Shown: one piece after another, positions 13,219 through 19,928 of the stretch | Layout of the letters: each line of letters opens with the position of its first letter | Position numbering within the stretch: the stretch's first letter is position 1 | Assembly: GCF_021462415.1 (NCBI RefSeq) | Contig: NZ_JAKEDS010000001.1 | Span: 406,273-470,272 of the forward strand | Length of the DNA: 64,000 nt | DNA from: Rhodohalobacter sp. 614A | GTDB lineage: Bacteria > Bacteroidota > Rhodothermia > Balneolales > Balneolaceae | Direction: 5' to 3' | The notes under the pieces: generated by a model | What the model was told of the DNA's origin: nothing | Databases searched by the model: none | The model's input: the letters and a program-made list of their open reading frames with translations, nothing else | Position numbers and translations under genes: made by a program

Positions 13219-14058
13219 ATGAAATCCATTCATCTGCTTTTCCCGGGACTCCTCATTTCACTTTTACTGTTCTCAGCATGTTCAAATTCTGAAGAAATAT
13301 CATCTGCCGACCAGGAAGAATGGATTGAACTCTTTAACGGTGAAAATCTTAACGGGTGGGATATTAAAATCACTCATCATGAGTTAAACGAGAATTATGC
13401 CAACACTTTCCGAGTAGAGAACGGACATCTCATTAACCGGTTTGACGGATATGAAGAGTTTGGCGGTCAATTCGGTCACATTTATTATCAGAAGCCTTTT
13501 TCATATTACAGGCTAATTACCGAATATCGATTCCCGGGCGAGCAAGTTGAAGGTGGACCGGGATGGGCATTTATGAACAATGGAATCATGTTTCATTCCC
13601 AGCCGGCAGACAGTGTTACGCTTGATCAGGAATTCCCAAATTCCATCGAATTTCAATTGCTTGGTGTTGAAAGCGATACGCTGGAGAGATCAAACGGAAA
13701 TGTCTGCACCCCCGGAACTCATGTTGTGATTGATGGAGAGTTAATCACGAATCATTGCACCAGTTCAAACGGACCGACAAATCTCGGGAGTGAGTGGGTC
13801 ACGGCTGAATTGATCGCTTATGGCGATTCATTGATTCAGCATAAAATCAATGGAGAGATTGTACTGGAATATACCCAGCCACAGCTGGATGACGGAACTC
13901 CTTTAACCGGCGGATATATTGCCTTTCAATCAGAAAGCCATCCCACGGAATTCAGATCCATTCGGCTCTTGAACCTGGAAGGATGTATGGATGAAAACGC
14001 CTCGAACTATAAAACGTACTATGTAAAATCAAAGCCCGAAAGTTGTAGTTACGATTAG
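13219..14058 (+). CDS. DUF1080 (3-keto-disaccharide hydrolase-type) lipoprotein
   Basis: A 279-residue protein with a lipobox (LLFSAC, Cys21) and a single DUF1080 jelly-roll domain. Characteristic parts are EWIELFNGENLNGWDIKI, FGHIYYQKPFSYYRLITEYR, NNGIMFHSQ and SIEFQLLG. Family members hydrolyse or bind 3-keto-sugars and are common in Bacteroidota, Balneolota and Planctomycetes. After the domain comes GCMDENASNYKTYY ending in CSYD. This is a short cysteine-paired motif of the GCMDxxAxNYxxxA type that usually decorates long repeat-containing secreted proteins, so finding one copy here is unusual. The gene overlaps the convergent DUF488 gene by 4 bp. Confidence 0.87.
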   Translation: MKSIHLLFPGLLISLLLFSACSNSEEISSADQEEWIELFNGENLNGWDIKITHHELNENYANTFRVENGHLINRFDGYEEFGGQFGHIYYQKPFSYYRLITEYRFPGEQVEGGPGWAFMNNGIMFHSQPADSVTLDQEFPNSIEFQLLGVESDTLERSNGNVCTPGTHVVIDGELITNHCTSSNGPTNLGSEWVTAELIAYGDSLIQHKINGEIVLEYTQPQLDDGTPLTGGYIAFQSESHPTEFRSIRLLNLEGCMDENASNYKTYYVKSKPESCSYD

Positions 14059-14426
14059 ATATCGTTTCCGTTTTCGAGCAGATCTTCAAGGAATTCTTTC
14101 AGAAGCACCGTGCTGTTATGCTTTTCATCTTTAGAAGCATAAACCAGTGTTACCGTTTCATTCATTTTGATGATTTCGAGAAGTTCTTCAATCTGTTCCG
14201 ACCCAAAAAGCTCTTTACGATAACGCCCTTTGAACTCATCCCATTTTTCGTGATCGTGATCAAACCACTTTCTGAGATCCTGGCTGGGCGAAATTCCTTT
14301 CATCCATTGATCCAGATTTGCCCGATCTTTGGTAACTCCGCGCGGCCAGAGGCGTTCTGTAAGAATTCGAACTCCATCGGATTCTTCAGGTTCTTCATAA
14401 ACGCGTTTGGTTTTGATTTTACTCAT
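14055..14426 (-). CDS. DUF488 family protein
   Basis: A 123-residue member of the YeaO-like DUF488 group. Family hallmarks are RILTERLWPRGVTKD near the start, the DLRKWFDHDHEKWDEFK block in the middle, and TLVYASKDEKHNS near the end. The ATG at 14426 (MSKIKTKRVYEEP) matches the usual family N-terminus; the ORF extends nine codons further but without need. The biochemical function is not established. It lies 30 bp downstream of the globin gene on the same strand and is probably co-transcribed. DUF488 and globin genes are often near neighbours. Confidence 0.88.
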   Translation of the reverse strand: MSKIKTKRVYEEPEESDGVRILTERLWPRGVTKDRANLDQWMKGISPSQDLRKWFDHDHEKWDEFKGRYRKELFGSEQIEELLEIIKMNETVTLVYASKDEKHNSTVLLKEFLEDLLENGNDI

Positions 14427-14456: not shown

Positions 14457-14834
14457 TTAATTAAACTTGCCGCTCATCTCCATTTTCAGCGCAAATGATG
14501 AAGCAATTTTAGCCGCCATCTCTTTTGCATAGTCAGCTTTTTTTCCTTCAAATAATTCATCAACTGTGGATTCAAAAAGTCCAAACCACAGCGAAAAATC
14601 ATCTTTTTGAATAGGGAGAGGAATATGTTGACGAAACGGCCGCCCTTTGTATTGACCGGTTTGAAACAACAAGTTCGACCAAAAATCAACCATTATCGAC
14701 AGATGCGTATTCCAGTCAACTTTGGCAACATCATTAAAAATGTACCCCATGCGTTCATTATCCCGCACTTTGCCATAAAATGTATGGACCAATTCCCGCA
14801 CATCCGATTCATTGCTGATATCGTGCTTAGCCAT
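14457..14834 (-). CDS. Group III truncated haemoglobin
   Basis: A 125-residue globin of the 2-over-2 type, group III. The pattern DWNTHLSIMVDFWSNLLFQT followed by GRPFRQHIPLP is diagnostic. His70 in FRQHIPLP is the expected proximal heme ligand, and the aromatic-rich FFQTG region matches the group. Group III globins are poorly understood; proposed roles include protection from NO or peroxide and redox chemistry in microaerobic conditions. The gene lies 35 bp after the stop of the cysteine-rich barrel-like protein and shares its strand, so the two appear to form an operon that continues into DUF488. Confidence 0.9.
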   Translation of the reverse strand: MAKHDISNESDVRELVHTFYGKVRDNERMGYIFNDVAKVDWNTHLSIMVDFWSNLLFQTGQYKGRPFRQHIPLPIQKDDFSLWFGLFESTVDELFEGKKADYAKEMAAKIASSFALKMEMSGKFN

Positions 14835-14869
14835 CTCTTTCTTTACTTCGTCAATATTTTATTGAGCTG

Positions 14870-16678
14870 TCAGGCCTCGCTTGGCACCAGGTTAAATATT
14901 TCTGCCAATCGCAGCTTCTGTTCTTCTACTGTAGATTGGAGCGAATGCAGGTTTTCTCCTTCATAAGATGAACCTTTCGCAATCTCCATACAAAGCTCCA
15001 TCCCGGCATCCAGATTTTTCTTCATTCGGAGAAGTTTCTTCCATTCCGCATCTTCCGGATCAGCCAGAATTGCCAGTTCATTGATATAATCCACATACAT
15101 CGTAAGTTCTTTGGCAAACATGTGTGGACGCTCTTTTGGCACAAGAGATTCTCTTCGTCCATAGATATGATCAACCATCTCATCCAGTGAATATTCCCGG
15201 TTAAACCATGCAATATTTGGCCCCGGACAAATGGCCTGCCGACCGTACGATGGTTTCATAATTCCCAGCCGAATCATTGACCCCGTTCCAAGATTGGTGC
15301 AGAGACAGGTTTTATCCATCACCCTGTTTTTTTGATTTTCTTTTTCTTCATCAGAAATATCGCTCTCCTGGATAGAGTTGATTTTCAACAGTTGATACTC
15401 TGCAGATGCCGTACAGATAGGCTCTTCAGTAAATTCCGTATTTGAAACCAAAAAACCCTTCGGACATTTTGATCCGGGCTTGCCTTTTTCGACCAATTCC
15501 CGGGTATATTTTTCTGAACCTGTACCCCTCACATTATTAAATGGCACACCAAGCGGCGATACATTACTGAGATAGAGATCTTTCTCCGCAGCATTTGCGA
15601 GAACTTTGGAAGTCAATTCATCCACACAAGTTGCTTCCGGCACAAGCAAAAACGGACTTCCCCAGCCGGTGGCATCCATTCCGTACTCTTCCAATAAGCG
15701 GCGCATCTCGCCATTATTTCCAATTCCACCTTGTACGGTGATTTTTGGTGTCGTTTCTTCTTCGCTTAACTCGGGATATTCCCAACCTTGTGATTCATAA
15801 AAACTTTGAATCATTGGTTGAAAGGTTTCTTTTAGCTGGTTTCTCTTCTCACGAAATTCATTCAATAAAACCGGCAACAAATATCCGTCTGAGGCAAACG
15901 CATGGCCACCACAATTTAAGCCTGACTCAATTCTGAACTCAGCAACTTCAAGGCCTTTCTTCGCCAGGAATTTTCCTTGTATGAGTGCAGATCGAAAATC
16001 ACTCACTTTTAAGATTATTTTTTTCTTGATGTCGCCCGTTTTATCTCTGTAAAAATCCTTGAATTCGGAAAGGTAGCTGTACAGCCGCGGATTAAAACCG
16101 GCAGAAAGCACCAGTGATGATGAAAGTTTACTGTTCGCATACCCCCGTAACGCCGAACTCGCGTCGCTGTATTCACTGCTTAACGGCTGACCGTCGTCAC
16201 CCATTTTCAAAGCATCCACTTTCGCCATAATGTTCACATCAATGGAGCCGAGCGTCATTTTCCCTGTTATTTCCTTAATCAGGTTTTGGCGGACCGCTTG
16301 GTTTGTCAGCGATGCAATCTTGTCATAACTTTTTCGCAAGGGATTGCTTTCCGGCAACAGCCTAAAATATCGATCCTTCTCTGTGCCTTCCAGAAGTGAC
16401 ATTTTCTTCAGTTCATCAAATTTTTGGCCAACAATATCAGCCATAAGATTCAGATACGCCGTAATCCTTTCGGCACGTCCGTCTGCGGCAGATTTCGGAA
16501 TATTCTGATAAGCAATGTTGTGTACCGAAGAATAATGCTGTCGGATTTTCTCGCAGAGCATGTCATCAACAACAGAAACAACCGAGTTAATTCCTAAATG
16601 AGCGATGCGAATGGGAGTGTCGATGGAGTGGCCGGTTCCCATGACCGGAATGTGAAAGAGATGTTGATTTTGGATCAT
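14870..16678 (-). CDS. Large cysteine-rich protein, possibly flavin TIM-barrel related
   Basis: A 602-residue protein I cannot name. The N-terminus PVMGTGHSIDTPIRIAHLGI opens like an FMN-binding barrel. ESGLNCGGHA (251-260) and VQGGIGNNGEMRRLLEE with GMDATGWGSPFLLVPEAT (315-350) resemble the GGI..., phosphate-binding and gating segments of nitronate monooxygenase / FabK-like enzymes. The second half carries many cysteines (C351, C405, C422, C458, C460, C484), including KTCLCTNLGTG, which could hold an Fe-S cluster or disulfides. No signal or TM segment is present. The pairing with a group III globin suggests a redox or NO-related role. The resemblance was judged by eye; an entirely different fold is possible. 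Confidence 0.75.
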   Translation of the reverse strand: MIQNQHLFHIPVMGTGHSIDTPIRIAHLGINSVVSVVDDMLCEKIRQHYSSVHNIAYQNIPKSAADGRAERITAYLNLMADIVGQKFDELKKMSLLEGTEKDRYFRLLPESNPLRKSYDKIASLTNQAVRQNLIKEITGKMTLGSIDVNIMAKVDALKMGDDGQPLSSEYSDASSALRGYANSKLSSSLVLSAGFNPRLYSYLSEFKDFYRDKTGDIKKKIILKVSDFRSALIQGKFLAKKGLEVAEFRIESGLNCGGHAFASDGYLLPVLLNEFREKRNQLKETFQPMIQSFYESQGWEYPELSEEETTPKITVQGGIGNNGEMRRLLEEYGMDATGWGSPFLLVPEATCVDELTSKVLANAAEKDLYLSNVSPLGVPFNNVRGTGSEKYTRELVEKGKPGSKCPKGFLVSNTEFTEEPICTASAEYQLLKINSIQESDISDEEKENQKNRVMDKTCLCTNLGTGSMIRLGIMKPSYGRQAICPGPNIAWFNREYSLDEMVDHIYGRRESLVPKERPHMFAKELTMYVDYINELAILADPEDAEWKKLLRMKKNLDAGMELCMEIAKGSSYEGENLHSLQSTVEEQKLRLAEIFNLVPSEA

Positions 16679-16721
16679 AAAAAGAACCTTTCTGGTTATG
16701 GAAAAATATTCTTATTAAACG

Positions 16722-16747
16722 GATAAAATACTCTTAATTATAATAAT
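16722..16747 (+). promoter_or_regulatory. Candidate operator, copy A (shared with the rrf2 promoter)
   Basis: This AT-rich 26-bp stretch, GATAAAATACTCTTAATTAT plus AATAAT, matches the stretch at 18043-18068 in 20 of 26 positions without gaps. It lies 44 bp upstream of the start of the cysteine-rich protein (14870-16678) and in the same intergenic space as the heme A synthase promoter. It could be the binding site of the nearby Rrf2 regulator. This is a two-copy comparison in AT-rich DNA, so chance is not excluded. Confidence 0.35.
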
Positions 16748-16905: not shown

Positions 16906-17973
16906 GTGAATGATAAATTTAATTGGATGACTGAAAGAGATAAAAAGCACGTCCGTACCTGGTATTGGAGTGGTGCAGTTCTGATTTTTGTAATGGTAGT
17001 CATTGGCGGTATTACACGCCTCACGGGTTCCGGGCTCTCTATGACAGACTGGAACCCGATTATGGGGGCTATTCCTCCACTTTCCGAAGCTCAATGGGAA
17101 GAGGTGTTTGAACAGTACAAACAGTTTCCCGAGTATCGTGAAATAAATTACAACATGACCCTTCCGGATTTTAAAGCCATCTTTTTCTGGGAATATATTC
17201 ATCGGCTTTTGGGCCGAATTATAGGATTGGTTTTCATCATTCCGTTTGCCTGGTTTGTCATCAAAAAGAAAGTAGATGCCAGAAATATCAAAAGGGGGAT
17301 CATCCTTTTTGTACTTGGTTTGAGCCAGGGACTGCTTGGCTGGTTTATGGTGATGAGCGGTCTTGTGGATGTACCGGAAGTGAGTCATTATCGATTAGCG
17401 GCTCACCTTTTGCTGGCTTTTTCAATCTTTGGTTTTTGTGTTTGGTACGCCCAGGATTTAACTCCATCAACCAGCCCGCATGAAAAAACCGGTCATAAAT
17501 TAAAAGGGTGGCTTTATCTGCTGATGGTATTGCTGGTTATTCAAATTATGTATGGTGCTTTTGTGGCAAATTTGCAGGCCGGTCATATCTACAATACTTT
17601 CCCAAAAATGTATCAACATTGGGCACCGCCGGAATTGTGGGTGATTAAACCTGTCATCCTGAATTTCTTTGAAAATATTGTCACCATTCAGTGGCTGCAC
17701 CGTGTTTTTGGAACCCTGCTTGGACTGATGGTCATCGCCATCCTGATTCGAACATTTCTGCTTGATGCAAAATCTGTAACAAAACGCTGGAGTATTGCAC
17801 TATTTACCATCGTTCTGGTACAATATCTGATTGGTATCTTTACACTGCTTTTACATGTACCCATCTGGCTGGGCGTTCTGCATCAAACCGTGGCTCTTGT
17901 TCTTTTTGGAGTCATTTTGGGTTTTCTGAACTATTTGAATCAGCCCGGTTCTCTTGGTGAATTGAATGCGTAA
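16906..17973 (+). CDS. ctaA: Heme A synthase, COX15/CtaA family
   Basis: A 355-residue protein with eight predicted membrane segments in two four-helix halves. It oxidises the C8 methyl of heme O to the formyl of heme A for aa3-type cytochrome oxidase. Conserved pieces are GGITRLTGSGLSMTDWNPI (35-52), YIHRLLGR with H99, SHYRLAAH (H161, H167), IQWLHRVFG and LHQTVAL, which supply the heme-ligating histidines. The length and absence of the paired cysteines of Bacillus CtaA place it in the COX15-like (type 2) branch. The start is GTG at 16906; the ATG at 16927 is the alternative. It is divergent from the globin operon, and no oxidase subunit gene is adjacent. Confidence 0.93.
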   Translation: MNDKFNWMTERDKKHVRTWYWSGAVLIFVMVVIGGITRLTGSGLSMTDWNPIMGAIPPLSEAQWEEVFEQYKQFPEYREINYNMTLPDFKAIFFWEYIHRLLGRIIGLVFIIPFAWFVIKKKVDARNIKRGIILFVLGLSQGLLGWFMVMSGLVDVPEVSHYRLAAHLLLAFSIFGFCVWYAQDLTPSTSPHEKTGHKLKGWLYLLMVLLVIQIMYGAFVANLQAGHIYNTFPKMYQHWAPPELWVIKPVILNFFENIVTIQWLHRVFGTLLGLMVIAILIRTFLLDAKSVTKRWSIALFTIVLVQYLIGIFTLLLHVPIWLGVLHQTVALVLFGVILGFLNYLNQPGSLGELNA

Positions 17974-18042
17974 AACTAATTTTCAGTAGAAGTTTTTTTG
18001 TTCATAAATAATAGAAAGTGATATTGAAATTATTTAATTTAA

Positions 18043-18068
18043 GATAAAAGAGTCTCAATAATATAAAT
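18043..18068 (+). promoter_or_regulatory. Candidate operator, copy B upstream of rrf2
   Basis: This is the second copy of the 26-bp motif noted at 16722-16747 (20/26 identical). It is centred on GAGTCTC, so the core is an imperfect palindrome with AT-rich flanks. It ends 8 bp before the ATG of the Rrf2 gene, which is a usual position for an autorepressor site. Binding is not shown. Confidence 0.38.
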
Positions 18069-18076
18069 TTGATGTT

Positions 18077-18544
18077 ATGCTATTATCCAAATCCTGTGTA
18101 TACGGCCTTCGTGCTTCGTTATACCTCGCATCAAGAAAGAACGGTGAATTTATTCCAATCCGGAAAATGAGTGATAAGCTTGAAATCTCTTTCCATTTTT
18201 TAACCAAAATCCTCCAACAGTTAACCGCCCAGGAACTTCTTGAATCTTTCAAAGGCCCGAATGGTGGTGTTCGCCTGAAAAAACCGGGAACAGAGATTCG
18301 TCTGATGGATGTTGTACTGGCCATCGACGGGCCACAATTGCTCACCGAATGTGCACTCGGACTCCCAGGTTGCGGAACTAAAGATCCATGTCCACTACAC
18401 GACAAATGGGCTGAAACCCGAGATGCCATTCGCGAAATGCTGGAAGACACCAGCCTTAAAGAGCTTGTCGAAAAAGGAAAAGCAGAAAATCTCCGGCTGA
18501 CAACCGACGGGGGATTTGATATTCTTTTTGAAGATGATGAATAA
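18077..18544 (+). CDS. Rrf2-family [2Fe-2S] transcriptional regulator
   Basis: A 155-residue Rrf2 protein with an N-terminal winged helix (SKSCVYGLRASLYLA, HFLTKILQQLTAQELLESF, GPNGGVRL) and the three cluster cysteines C92, C99 and C105 (ECALGLPGCGTKDPCPLH). This spacing is that of NsrR/IscR-type sensors, which read NO, redox state or Fe-S supply through a [2Fe-2S] cluster. The neighbours are hemN (overlapping), heme A synthase and, 1.4 kb away, a globin operon, which argues for a NO/oxygen/heme regulator rather than an isc regulator. No isc or suf genes are in the window. The acidic tail (FEDDE) encodes the start of hemN. Confidence 0.92.
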   Translation: MLLSKSCVYGLRASLYLASRKNGEFIPIRKMSDKLEISFHFLTKILQQLTAQELLESFKGPNGGVRLKKPGTEIRLMDVVLAIDGPQLLTECALGLPGCGTKDPCPLHDKWAETRDAIREMLEDTSLKELVEKGKAENLRLTTDGGFDILFEDDE

Positions 18545-19928
18545 AGATAATCTGCCAACAAACAGGCAACTTTTACAACTGATAAACAAGTACAATGTAC
18601 CGGGGCCGAGGTACACCTCGTATCCAACGGCTGTTCAGTTTCAGAGTAATTTTAACCAATCTCTGCTTACTTCCGAATTTCGGTACCGGTCAAACAATCC
18701 GGCGTTTTACTCTCTTTATATTCATATTCCGTTTTGTTTCTCGCTCTGCTGGTACTGCGGCTGCACCAAGCTGATCACCAAAGACCAAAGCCGGGGTGAT
18801 ACCTATCTCGATTACCTGGAAAAAGAGATGGAATTGGTTTCAGAACACATCCATCCCGAATCGAGCCTGAGACAAATCCATTTTGGGGGCGGCACACCTA
18901 CATTCCTGACTCCGGATCAACTGTTGAGACTCGGTGAGTTGATTCGCAAATATTTCAGACTTCACTCAACCTGTGAATTCAGTGTAGAAATTGATCCCAG
19001 AAAAGTAACGGAAGAACATGTTATTGCACTCACACAAATTGGGTGTAATCGCGCGTCACTTGGCGTGCAGGATACCAATCCGGAGGTTCAAAAAACCATT
19101 CACAGAATACAGCCCTTTGAACAAACAAAAAAAGTTACTGAAGACCTCAGAAAACACGGCATTCAGCATATCAATTTTGATTTGATTTACGGCCTTCCCA
19201 AGCAGACTTTACAAACCTTCCAAAAAACGTTGGACGATACTTTGAGTCTGAACCCGGATCGCCTTGCTATCTATAGCTATGCTCATATTCCTAAGGTTAT
19301 GCCGGCCCAAAAATTGCTAAAAGTGGAGGACTTTCCATCCACGGAAGAGAAGTTTACCATGCTCTTAACAGCTATCGAGTATTTGCAGGAAAACGGGTAC
19401 GAATATATTGGAATGGATCACTTTGCCAAAGAAGGAGACGAACTGAGTAAGGCGCTTCACGAAGGTTCTCTGCAAAGAAATTTCCAGGGGTACAGCACGC
19501 ATGCTGACCTGGATATGATTGCTCTGGGAATGTCTGGCATCTCACAAAGTGGCCGTTTGTATTATCAAAATGAAAAAGACCTCAACGACTACTACTCTTC
19601 TTTGGATGAAGGAATACTTCCCATCAAAAAAGCGTATTCGTTGACGGATGAGGATAAAATCCGGCGGCAAATTGTTATGCAGATTATGTGCCGCGGAGAA
19701 ATTAATTATGATGAATTCAATTCCAAAACCGGGATAAATCTTCAGAAAAATTACCCGGAAGAACTTGAACAGCTTTCAACATTCGAAGGCGACGGCTTCC
19801 TGATTAAAACTCCCAATGGATTTCATATTACCGAAACCGGTCGCCTGTTCCTGAGAAATATCGCCATGGTATTTGATGAACATTTACAAAGCGCTCGGCG
19901 AAAAGCATCCTATTCAAAAACGGTTTAG
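18534..19928 (+). CDS. hemN: Oxygen-independent coproporphyrinogen III oxidase
   Basis: A 464-residue radical SAM enzyme that converts coproporphyrinogen III to protoporphyrinogen IX without oxygen. The N-terminal GPRYTSYPTAVQF is typical of true HemN. The cluster motif is PFCFSLCWYCGC (CX3CX2C, with the further Cys), followed by the SAM-binding HFGGGTPTFLT and the C-terminal GYSTHADLDMIALGMSGISQ. Starts at 18534 or 18537 (ATGATG) overlap the end of the Rrf2 gene by 8-11 bp, so the pair is translationally coupled and hemN is a likely Rrf2 target. Low-oxygen heme supply fits the adjacent heme A synthase and globin. Confidence 0.94.
   Translation: MMNKDNLPTNRQLLQLINKYNVPGPRYTSYPTAVQFQSNFNQSLLTSEFRYRSNNPAFYSLYIHIPFCFSLCWYCGCTKLITKDQSRGDTYLDYLEKEMELVSEHIHPESSLRQIHFGGGTPTFLTPDQLLRLGELIRKYFRLHSTCEFSVEIDPRKVTEEHVIALTQIGCNRASLGVQDTNPEVQKTIHRIQPFEQTKKVTEDLRKHGIQHINFDLIYGLPKQTLQTFQKTLDDTLSLNPDRLAIYSYAHIPKVMPAQKLLKVEDFPSTEEKFTMLLTAIEYLQENGYEYIGMDHFAKEGDELSKALHEGSLQRNFQGYSTHADLDMIALGMSGISQSGRLYYQNEKDLNDYYSSLDEGILPIKKAYSLTDEDKIRRQIVMQIMCRGEINYDEFNSKTGINLQKNYPEELEQLSTFEGDGFLIKTPNGFHITETGRLFLRNIAMVFDEHLQSARRKASYSKTV

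Follow-up and report, generated by a model that had tools for sequence, protein, structure and literature searches.

A divergent FabX-like barrel protein of Bacteroidota in a candidate Rrf2-type nitric oxide and low-oxygen regulon of Balneolia

A 602-residue protein encoded in a 64,000-nucleotide stretch of the Rhodohalobacter sp. 614A genome (the whole of which we call the window) is probably a FabX-like FMN/Fe-S oxidoreductase belonging to an Rrf2-type nitric oxide (NO) or low-oxygen regulon, a judgment that takes enzyme class and regulon together and excludes the substrate. It would be a divergent member of the FMN-dependent TIM-barrel superfamily of FabX, FabK and nitronate monooxygenase (NMO), with FMN as its predicted cofactor. 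Of 296 genomes drawn evenly across the phylum, 112 have the family (66 of 139 genera), with rarely more than one copy per genome. Over a third of the phylum's sampled genomes therefore encode it, yet Pfam and NCBIfam models do not match it, and a testable role follows from its placement as a FabX-like flavin/Fe-S enzyme within a regulon for nitrosative stress and low oxygen. The features of the window on which the analysis draws are as follows.

14055..14417, minus strand: DUF488-N3i protein ("inactive" subclade; PF22752, 128.8 bits), possible third gene of the same transcript
14457..14834, minus strand: group III truncated globin, 125 residues (PF01152, 24.2 bits; profile match to 2ig3)
14870..16678, minus strand: 602-residue FabX/FabK/NMO-type barrel protein with a C-terminal cysteine region (open reading frame, fold match and profile match)
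16696..16715, minus strand: second, weaker operator-like match, ATAAGAATATTTTTCCATAA, with 3 mismatches
16722..16735, minus strand: operator-like palindrome core upstream of the 602-residue protein gene, AAGAGTATTTTATC, an exact match to the clade core
16906..17973, plus strand: CtaA/COX15 haem A synthase, divergent from the 602-residue protein gene (PF02628, 365.7 bits)
18039..18058, minus strand: operator-like palindrome upstream of rrf2, with 2 mismatches
18077..18544, plus strand: Rrf2-family regulator, candidate sensor of the regulon (PF02082, 109.4 bits; TIGR00738 above cut-off)
18516..19928, plus strand: HemN, oxygen-independent coproporphyrinogen III oxidase (TIGR00538, 541 bits; cut-off 325)

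The barrel protein gene and the globin gene lie on the minus strand, 35 bp apart, just where a sequence-only reading had placed them, and the GGHA, GGIGNNGEMRRLLEE, GWGSPF and KTCLCTNLGTG motifs that it singled out are all present in the barrel protein. That reading had also called the second half of the protein rich in cysteines, which overstates their number (nine in 602 residues, seven of them in the second half), but six of them are invariant. Searches of Pfam, NCBIfam and PDB sequences gave no real match; neither the protein alone nor 23 members of its family reached the curated cut-off of PF03060, the Pfam NMO model; the plasmids searched carried no relative; and a literature search found no paper on the protein in Bacteroidota. 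A scan of genome contigs recovered 24 relatives, mostly from Balneolaceae, with a few on contigs labelled Neomarinimicrobiota and Planctomycetota, the distribution having been sampled chiefly within Bacteroidota and hardly beyond.

The AlphaFold model of the protein, built on an alignment of 23 sequences, has a pTM of 0.81. Foldseek returned 19 matches in the PDB at E ≤ 0.001, all of them to FabX, PfaD, the DfnA enoyl reductase, FabK or NMO/nitroalkane oxidase, with a best E-value of 3e-8 and Helicobacter pylori FabX as the top solved match. VIA-align superimposed the model on FabX with a Z score of 21.7 over 328 residues at 3.3 Å, and Z scores of 20 to 22 were obtained for FabX, PfaD, FabK and NMO, a list from which no family is ruled out. 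A TIM barrel is thus seen in the model, in line with the flavin-barrel resemblance proposed earlier, and these comparisons support the assignment of the predicted fold to the FMN type, matching solved members of the superfamily. Because pLDDT falls below 50 at residues 153-159, 257-260, 388-414, 419-421 and 457-463, covering several cysteines and the GGH loop, the cluster site, the arrangement of the cysteines and part of the active site are unreadable in the model.

Among 104 ungapped homologues, C256, C405, C422, C458, C460 and C484 are invariant in every sequence, and on this alignment the invariance of the six is judged to be beyond chance. In the same sequences conservation is 97% or higher at K153, D155, K224, D227, R229, E251, H259, the glycine pair at 317-318 and S374-P375. 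H259 is invariant and lies in a GGH motif, as does the catalytic histidine of the FMN-barrel superfamily. The clearest sequence link is to a FabX-like family of Bacteroidota with a CLC motif, here called A3: hhalign gave E 1.2e-6 over 274 columns, against 0.19 for a reversed control and 3.6e-5 for the barrel part alone, all single-comparison values. The alignment sets GGH259 on the AGGH motif of A3 and C405, C422, C458 and C460 on C319, C332, C358 and C360, in order, with C458/C460 and C358/C360 in a common KTCLCT motif. The A3 profile in turn matches H. pylori FabX at E 3.5e-27, which carries GGH259 to FabX His182, and a weak alignment sets S374-P375 on FabX S273-P274. Compared directly, the 602-residue family and FabX gave E 0.035 over only 69 columns, and the comparison with ordinary NMO/FabK (PF03060) was not significant (E 0.42). 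A3 (CLC plus CxxC cysteines; loci L138-L145) differs from the family described here in its length of about 420 residues, in two further cysteines (368 and 371) and in occurring in other families of the phylum: of the 296 sampled genomes 64 have it, nearly all from a single family, and none of the 64 is among the 112.

FabX itself (PDB 7e1q and 9lt5) binds FMN, carries a [4Fe-4S] cluster on C300, C304, C308 and C320, spaced C300-x3-C-x3-C-x11-C320, and uses His182 as its catalytic residue (PMC8626469). The two proteins have in common the FMN-type TIM barrel, the GGH histidine, a Ser-Pro after a late strand and a cysteine region after the barrel. The FabX spacing is absent from the 602-residue protein, which has five invariant C-terminal cysteines (C405, C422, C458, C460 and C484) instead, and we therefore place it as a FabX-like variant and not as FabX. 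It is also longer (602 residues against 363), only about 15-17% identical and without a direct significant sequence match. A further cysteine precedes its GGH histidine by three residues, and the protein has additional helices, both as insertions and at the C-terminus. NMO and FabK have the same fold (Z about 16-22) but, unlike them, the 602-residue protein has no Pfam match. The suggestion that the cysteines mark an Fe-S protein is borne out to the extent that KTCLCT is common to the FabX-like family, and, like FabX, the protein probably carries an Fe-S cluster, in its C-terminal region.

Upstream of the 602-residue protein gene, Rhodohalobacter-like genomes have the clade consensus TAAGA[GC]TATTTT[AG]TCTT. 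The palindrome TTAAGANTATTTTNTCTTAA, with up to 2 mismatches, occurs at 27 sites in 408 kb of Balneolia loci and at none in one Markov shuffle, a count that is partly circular because the core was first seen at the 602-residue protein gene and the longer form was fixed once the sites at RIC (the iron-centre repair protein ScdA/YtfE) were known; the sites at rrf2 and at amino-acid lyase genes are the more independent ones. Twenty-five of the 27 lie within 260 bp upstream of gene starts and none lies inside a gene. The genes behind them are rrf2, RIC, the 602-residue protein gene, tyrosine phenol-lyase/tryptophanase and an acyl-CoA synthetase-like gene; a weaker match precedes a membrane-protein/globin operon (L019), and two further loci (L027 and L034) have the palindrome at the same place before rrf2 as the window does. 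From this shared palindrome, seen only in Balneolia, rrf2, RIC, the 602-residue protein gene and the lyase genes appear to belong there to a single Rrf2-type regulon for nitrosative stress and low oxygen. The position of the sites makes Rrf2 control through the palindrome a putative one, with TTAAGACTATTTTGTCTTAA as the candidate target sequence and the palindrome as candidate operator. The sequence upstream of the 602-residue protein gene has no FNR or NsrR consensus box. In the window's own genome a loose pattern (1 to 3 mismatches) scored at or below a backwards control, and so no regulon members are drawn from it. The best match there outside the window (G000:C2:1067291-1067310, locus L158, 1 mismatch) lies some 125 bp before the gene of a NarL-type response regulator.

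The window regulator carries an Rrf2 domain (PF02082, 1.9e-31; TIGR00738 above cut-off). Its identification as NsrR was rejected, the equivalog score being 65 bits, far below the cut-off of 182. NsrR-type Rrf2 regulons, the subject of comparative work in PMC1274295, resemble the Balneolia set in having the regulator beside RIC/YtfE, in its apparent control of RIC/YtfE and nitrosative-stress genes, and in a site at its own gene. The Balneolia set differs from them in its palindrome, in that regulator score and in its content of a FabX-like enzyme, a group III globin, tyrosine phenol-lyase and a membrane protein resembling haem-copper oxidase.

The conserved partner of the 602-residue protein gene is RIC, rather than the globin. 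RIC (ScdA_N) occurs in 47 of 66 family-positive genera and in 25 of the 73 others (p 1.8e-5), and lies within 1 kb of the gene in 13 genomes. Co-occurrence with NosZ is marginal at genus level (p 0.04), and NosZ lies within 13 kb in 16 genomes; Nos genes and cytochrome c' are found in the wider neighbourhood. Two gene orders recur in Balneolia, Rrf2-RIC-602-membrane protein and NosF-NosY-HemN-PPDK-CtaA-RIC-602-tyrosine phenol-lyase, the latter with membrane protein-globin-cytochrome c' nearby; their labels denote clusters with representatives checked by Pfam/NCBIfam, and the Nos, PPDK and acyl-CoA synthetase names were read from sequences. RIC, NosZ and ordinary NMO were undetected in the window's own genome, which keeps rrf2, hemN, the 602-residue protein gene and the globin. 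In several Fodinibius-type loci tyrosine phenol-lyase follows 30-170 bp downstream of the 602-residue protein gene (L018:9865-11256, L015:9989-11374). A candidate tryptophanase label for the L018 copy (cluster 3) was set aside after the Pfam/NCBIfam check in favour of tyrosine phenol-lyase; a tryptophanase-like copy and an acyl-CoA synthetase with the same palindrome do occur in Fodinibius-type loci.

The globin of the window matches PF01152 weakly (24.2 bits, cut-off 21), and the Pfam model, which missed this very globin in a genome-level survey, was replaced by a dedicated profile. The profile of the globin and its relatives matches the Campylobacter jejuni group III truncated haemoglobin 2ig3 at E 8.8e-23, and F19, Y20, H44, W52, H70 and W83 are invariant in the six sequences of its family (A2). 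We take Y20, H44, H70 and W83 to be the haem-pocket positions B10, E7, F8 and G8, and by these comparisons the protein is a genuine group III truncated globin. The ATG of the DUF488-N3i gene lies 39 bp after the globin stop, on the same strand. In the closest relative, Rhodohalobacter sulfatireducens (G199, locus L002), a decayed copy of the globin with five stops lies in the corresponding position downstream of the 602-residue protein gene (G199:C127:20951-21298).

The sequence-only reading had suggested that the barrel protein and the globin, if their pairing is conserved, could be a two-component module, with the barrel protein supplying electrons to the globin or handling NO-derived compounds. 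In its reductase form, this reading would have the 602-residue enzyme hold the globin haem in the ferrous state, allowing NO turnover by the two together. The two genes do adjoin in three genomes (the window, G199 with its pseudogene, and the distant G033), and the palindrome match before the L019 operon agrees with such a link, but conservation of the pair fails: a group III globin was found within 1.3 kb in only 5 of 112 family-positive genomes (these three, G270 and G282) and not in the other 107, and 57 had none found anywhere (contig ends hide a few). An association at genome level (55 of 112 against 40 of 184; Fisher p 1.6e-6) was rejected as phylogenetic, since it is gone after collapse to genus (28 of 66 against 28 of 73; p 0.73), the level at which our co-occurrence tests handle kinship. 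Moreover, the gene before the globin in Fodinibius-type loci is that of the haem-copper-like membrane protein, not the 602-residue protein gene, and in one of them (L016) the globin is fused to this membrane protein. Direct electron transfer to the globin is an unlikely role for the family, and the reductase reading a very improbable one. What survives of the link is co-regulation in Balneolia, where one globin operon locus has an operator-like palindrome; the globin seems to be a co-regulated NO/O2-binding neighbour there and no obligate redox partner.

The main rival would have the protein detoxify nitro compounds or NO products, as an FMN/Fe-S oxidoreductase acting oxidatively or reductively on nitronates, nitro-aromatics or the nitroso products of nitrosative stress. 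The common fold class with NMO, the partnership with RIC, and the Nos and cytochrome c' genes nearby would all suit it; we nevertheless consider it unlikely, as FabX-like proteins, and not ordinary NMO, stand nearest to the protein by sequence, and as NMO works with O2, in contrast to the low-oxygen type of the regulon. The substrate is not readable from the active-site residues. That the barrel is a non-catalytic sensor or structural protein, for example an Fe-S sensor of NO, would accord with the failure to match any known enzyme family and with co-regulation with stress genes, but the invariant histidine, Ser-Pro, GG and Lys/Asp at superfamily active-site positions, and the wide single-copy conservation, fit an enzyme, leaving a sensor role highly doubtful.

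For the preferred FabX-like oxidoreductase, we infer the cofactors, substrate, acceptor and signal as follows. In Balneolia the protein would be made together with RIC, the globin, the haem-copper-oxidase-like membrane protein, HemN and the amino-acid lyases when the Rrf2-type regulator answers to NO or to loss of oxygen. His259 would act as the base that deprotonates the substrate beside its carbonyl or nitro group, FMN would accept the hydride, and the Fe-S centre would relay electrons singly to a non-oxygen acceptor. An acyl thioester is put forward tentatively as the likeliest class of substrate, as for a FabX/UfaA-like dehydrogenase-isomerase that makes unsaturated fatty acids without oxygen. 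Two things speak for this class: the link to FabX, and the gonococcal FabX homologue NGO1024, whose expression is induced under anaerobic conditions (PMC3032703) and which is reported to be indispensable for making unsaturated fatty acids anaerobically, with an unknown acceptor (PMC11300592). HemN replaces an oxygen-dependent step and other members of the set serve life with NO or little oxygen, which suits an acyl role, whereas the lack of any fatty-acid gene seen among the conserved neighbours does not fit it. More speculatively still, facultative Bacteroidota may possibly owe to this family, as a new Fe-S flavoenzyme, a way of making unsaturated (or otherwise dehydrogenated) acyl chains without oxygen while they respire NO or nitrous oxide, with the enzyme's own cysteine-bound cluster passing electrons to a non-oxygen acceptor and with an Rrf2 switch common to RIC and the globin. 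An acyl role would bear on how membranes are made without oxygen in bacteria that rely on oxygen-dependent desaturases.

The membrane-protein family that adjoins the 602-residue protein gene or the globin (A6; L019:11949-13214 and relatives) has no Pfam match. Its model, with a mean pLDDT of 69, is similar to subunit I of haem-copper oxidases (best E 4e-4), and an HAHSH motif, H198 and H330 are invariant in five sequences. At L016:9827-11455 a protein of this type and a group III globin form a single in-frame fusion of 542 residues, which could be real or could reflect a stop lost in assembly; at L018 and L022 the membrane protein and the globin are encoded by separate, adjoining genes.
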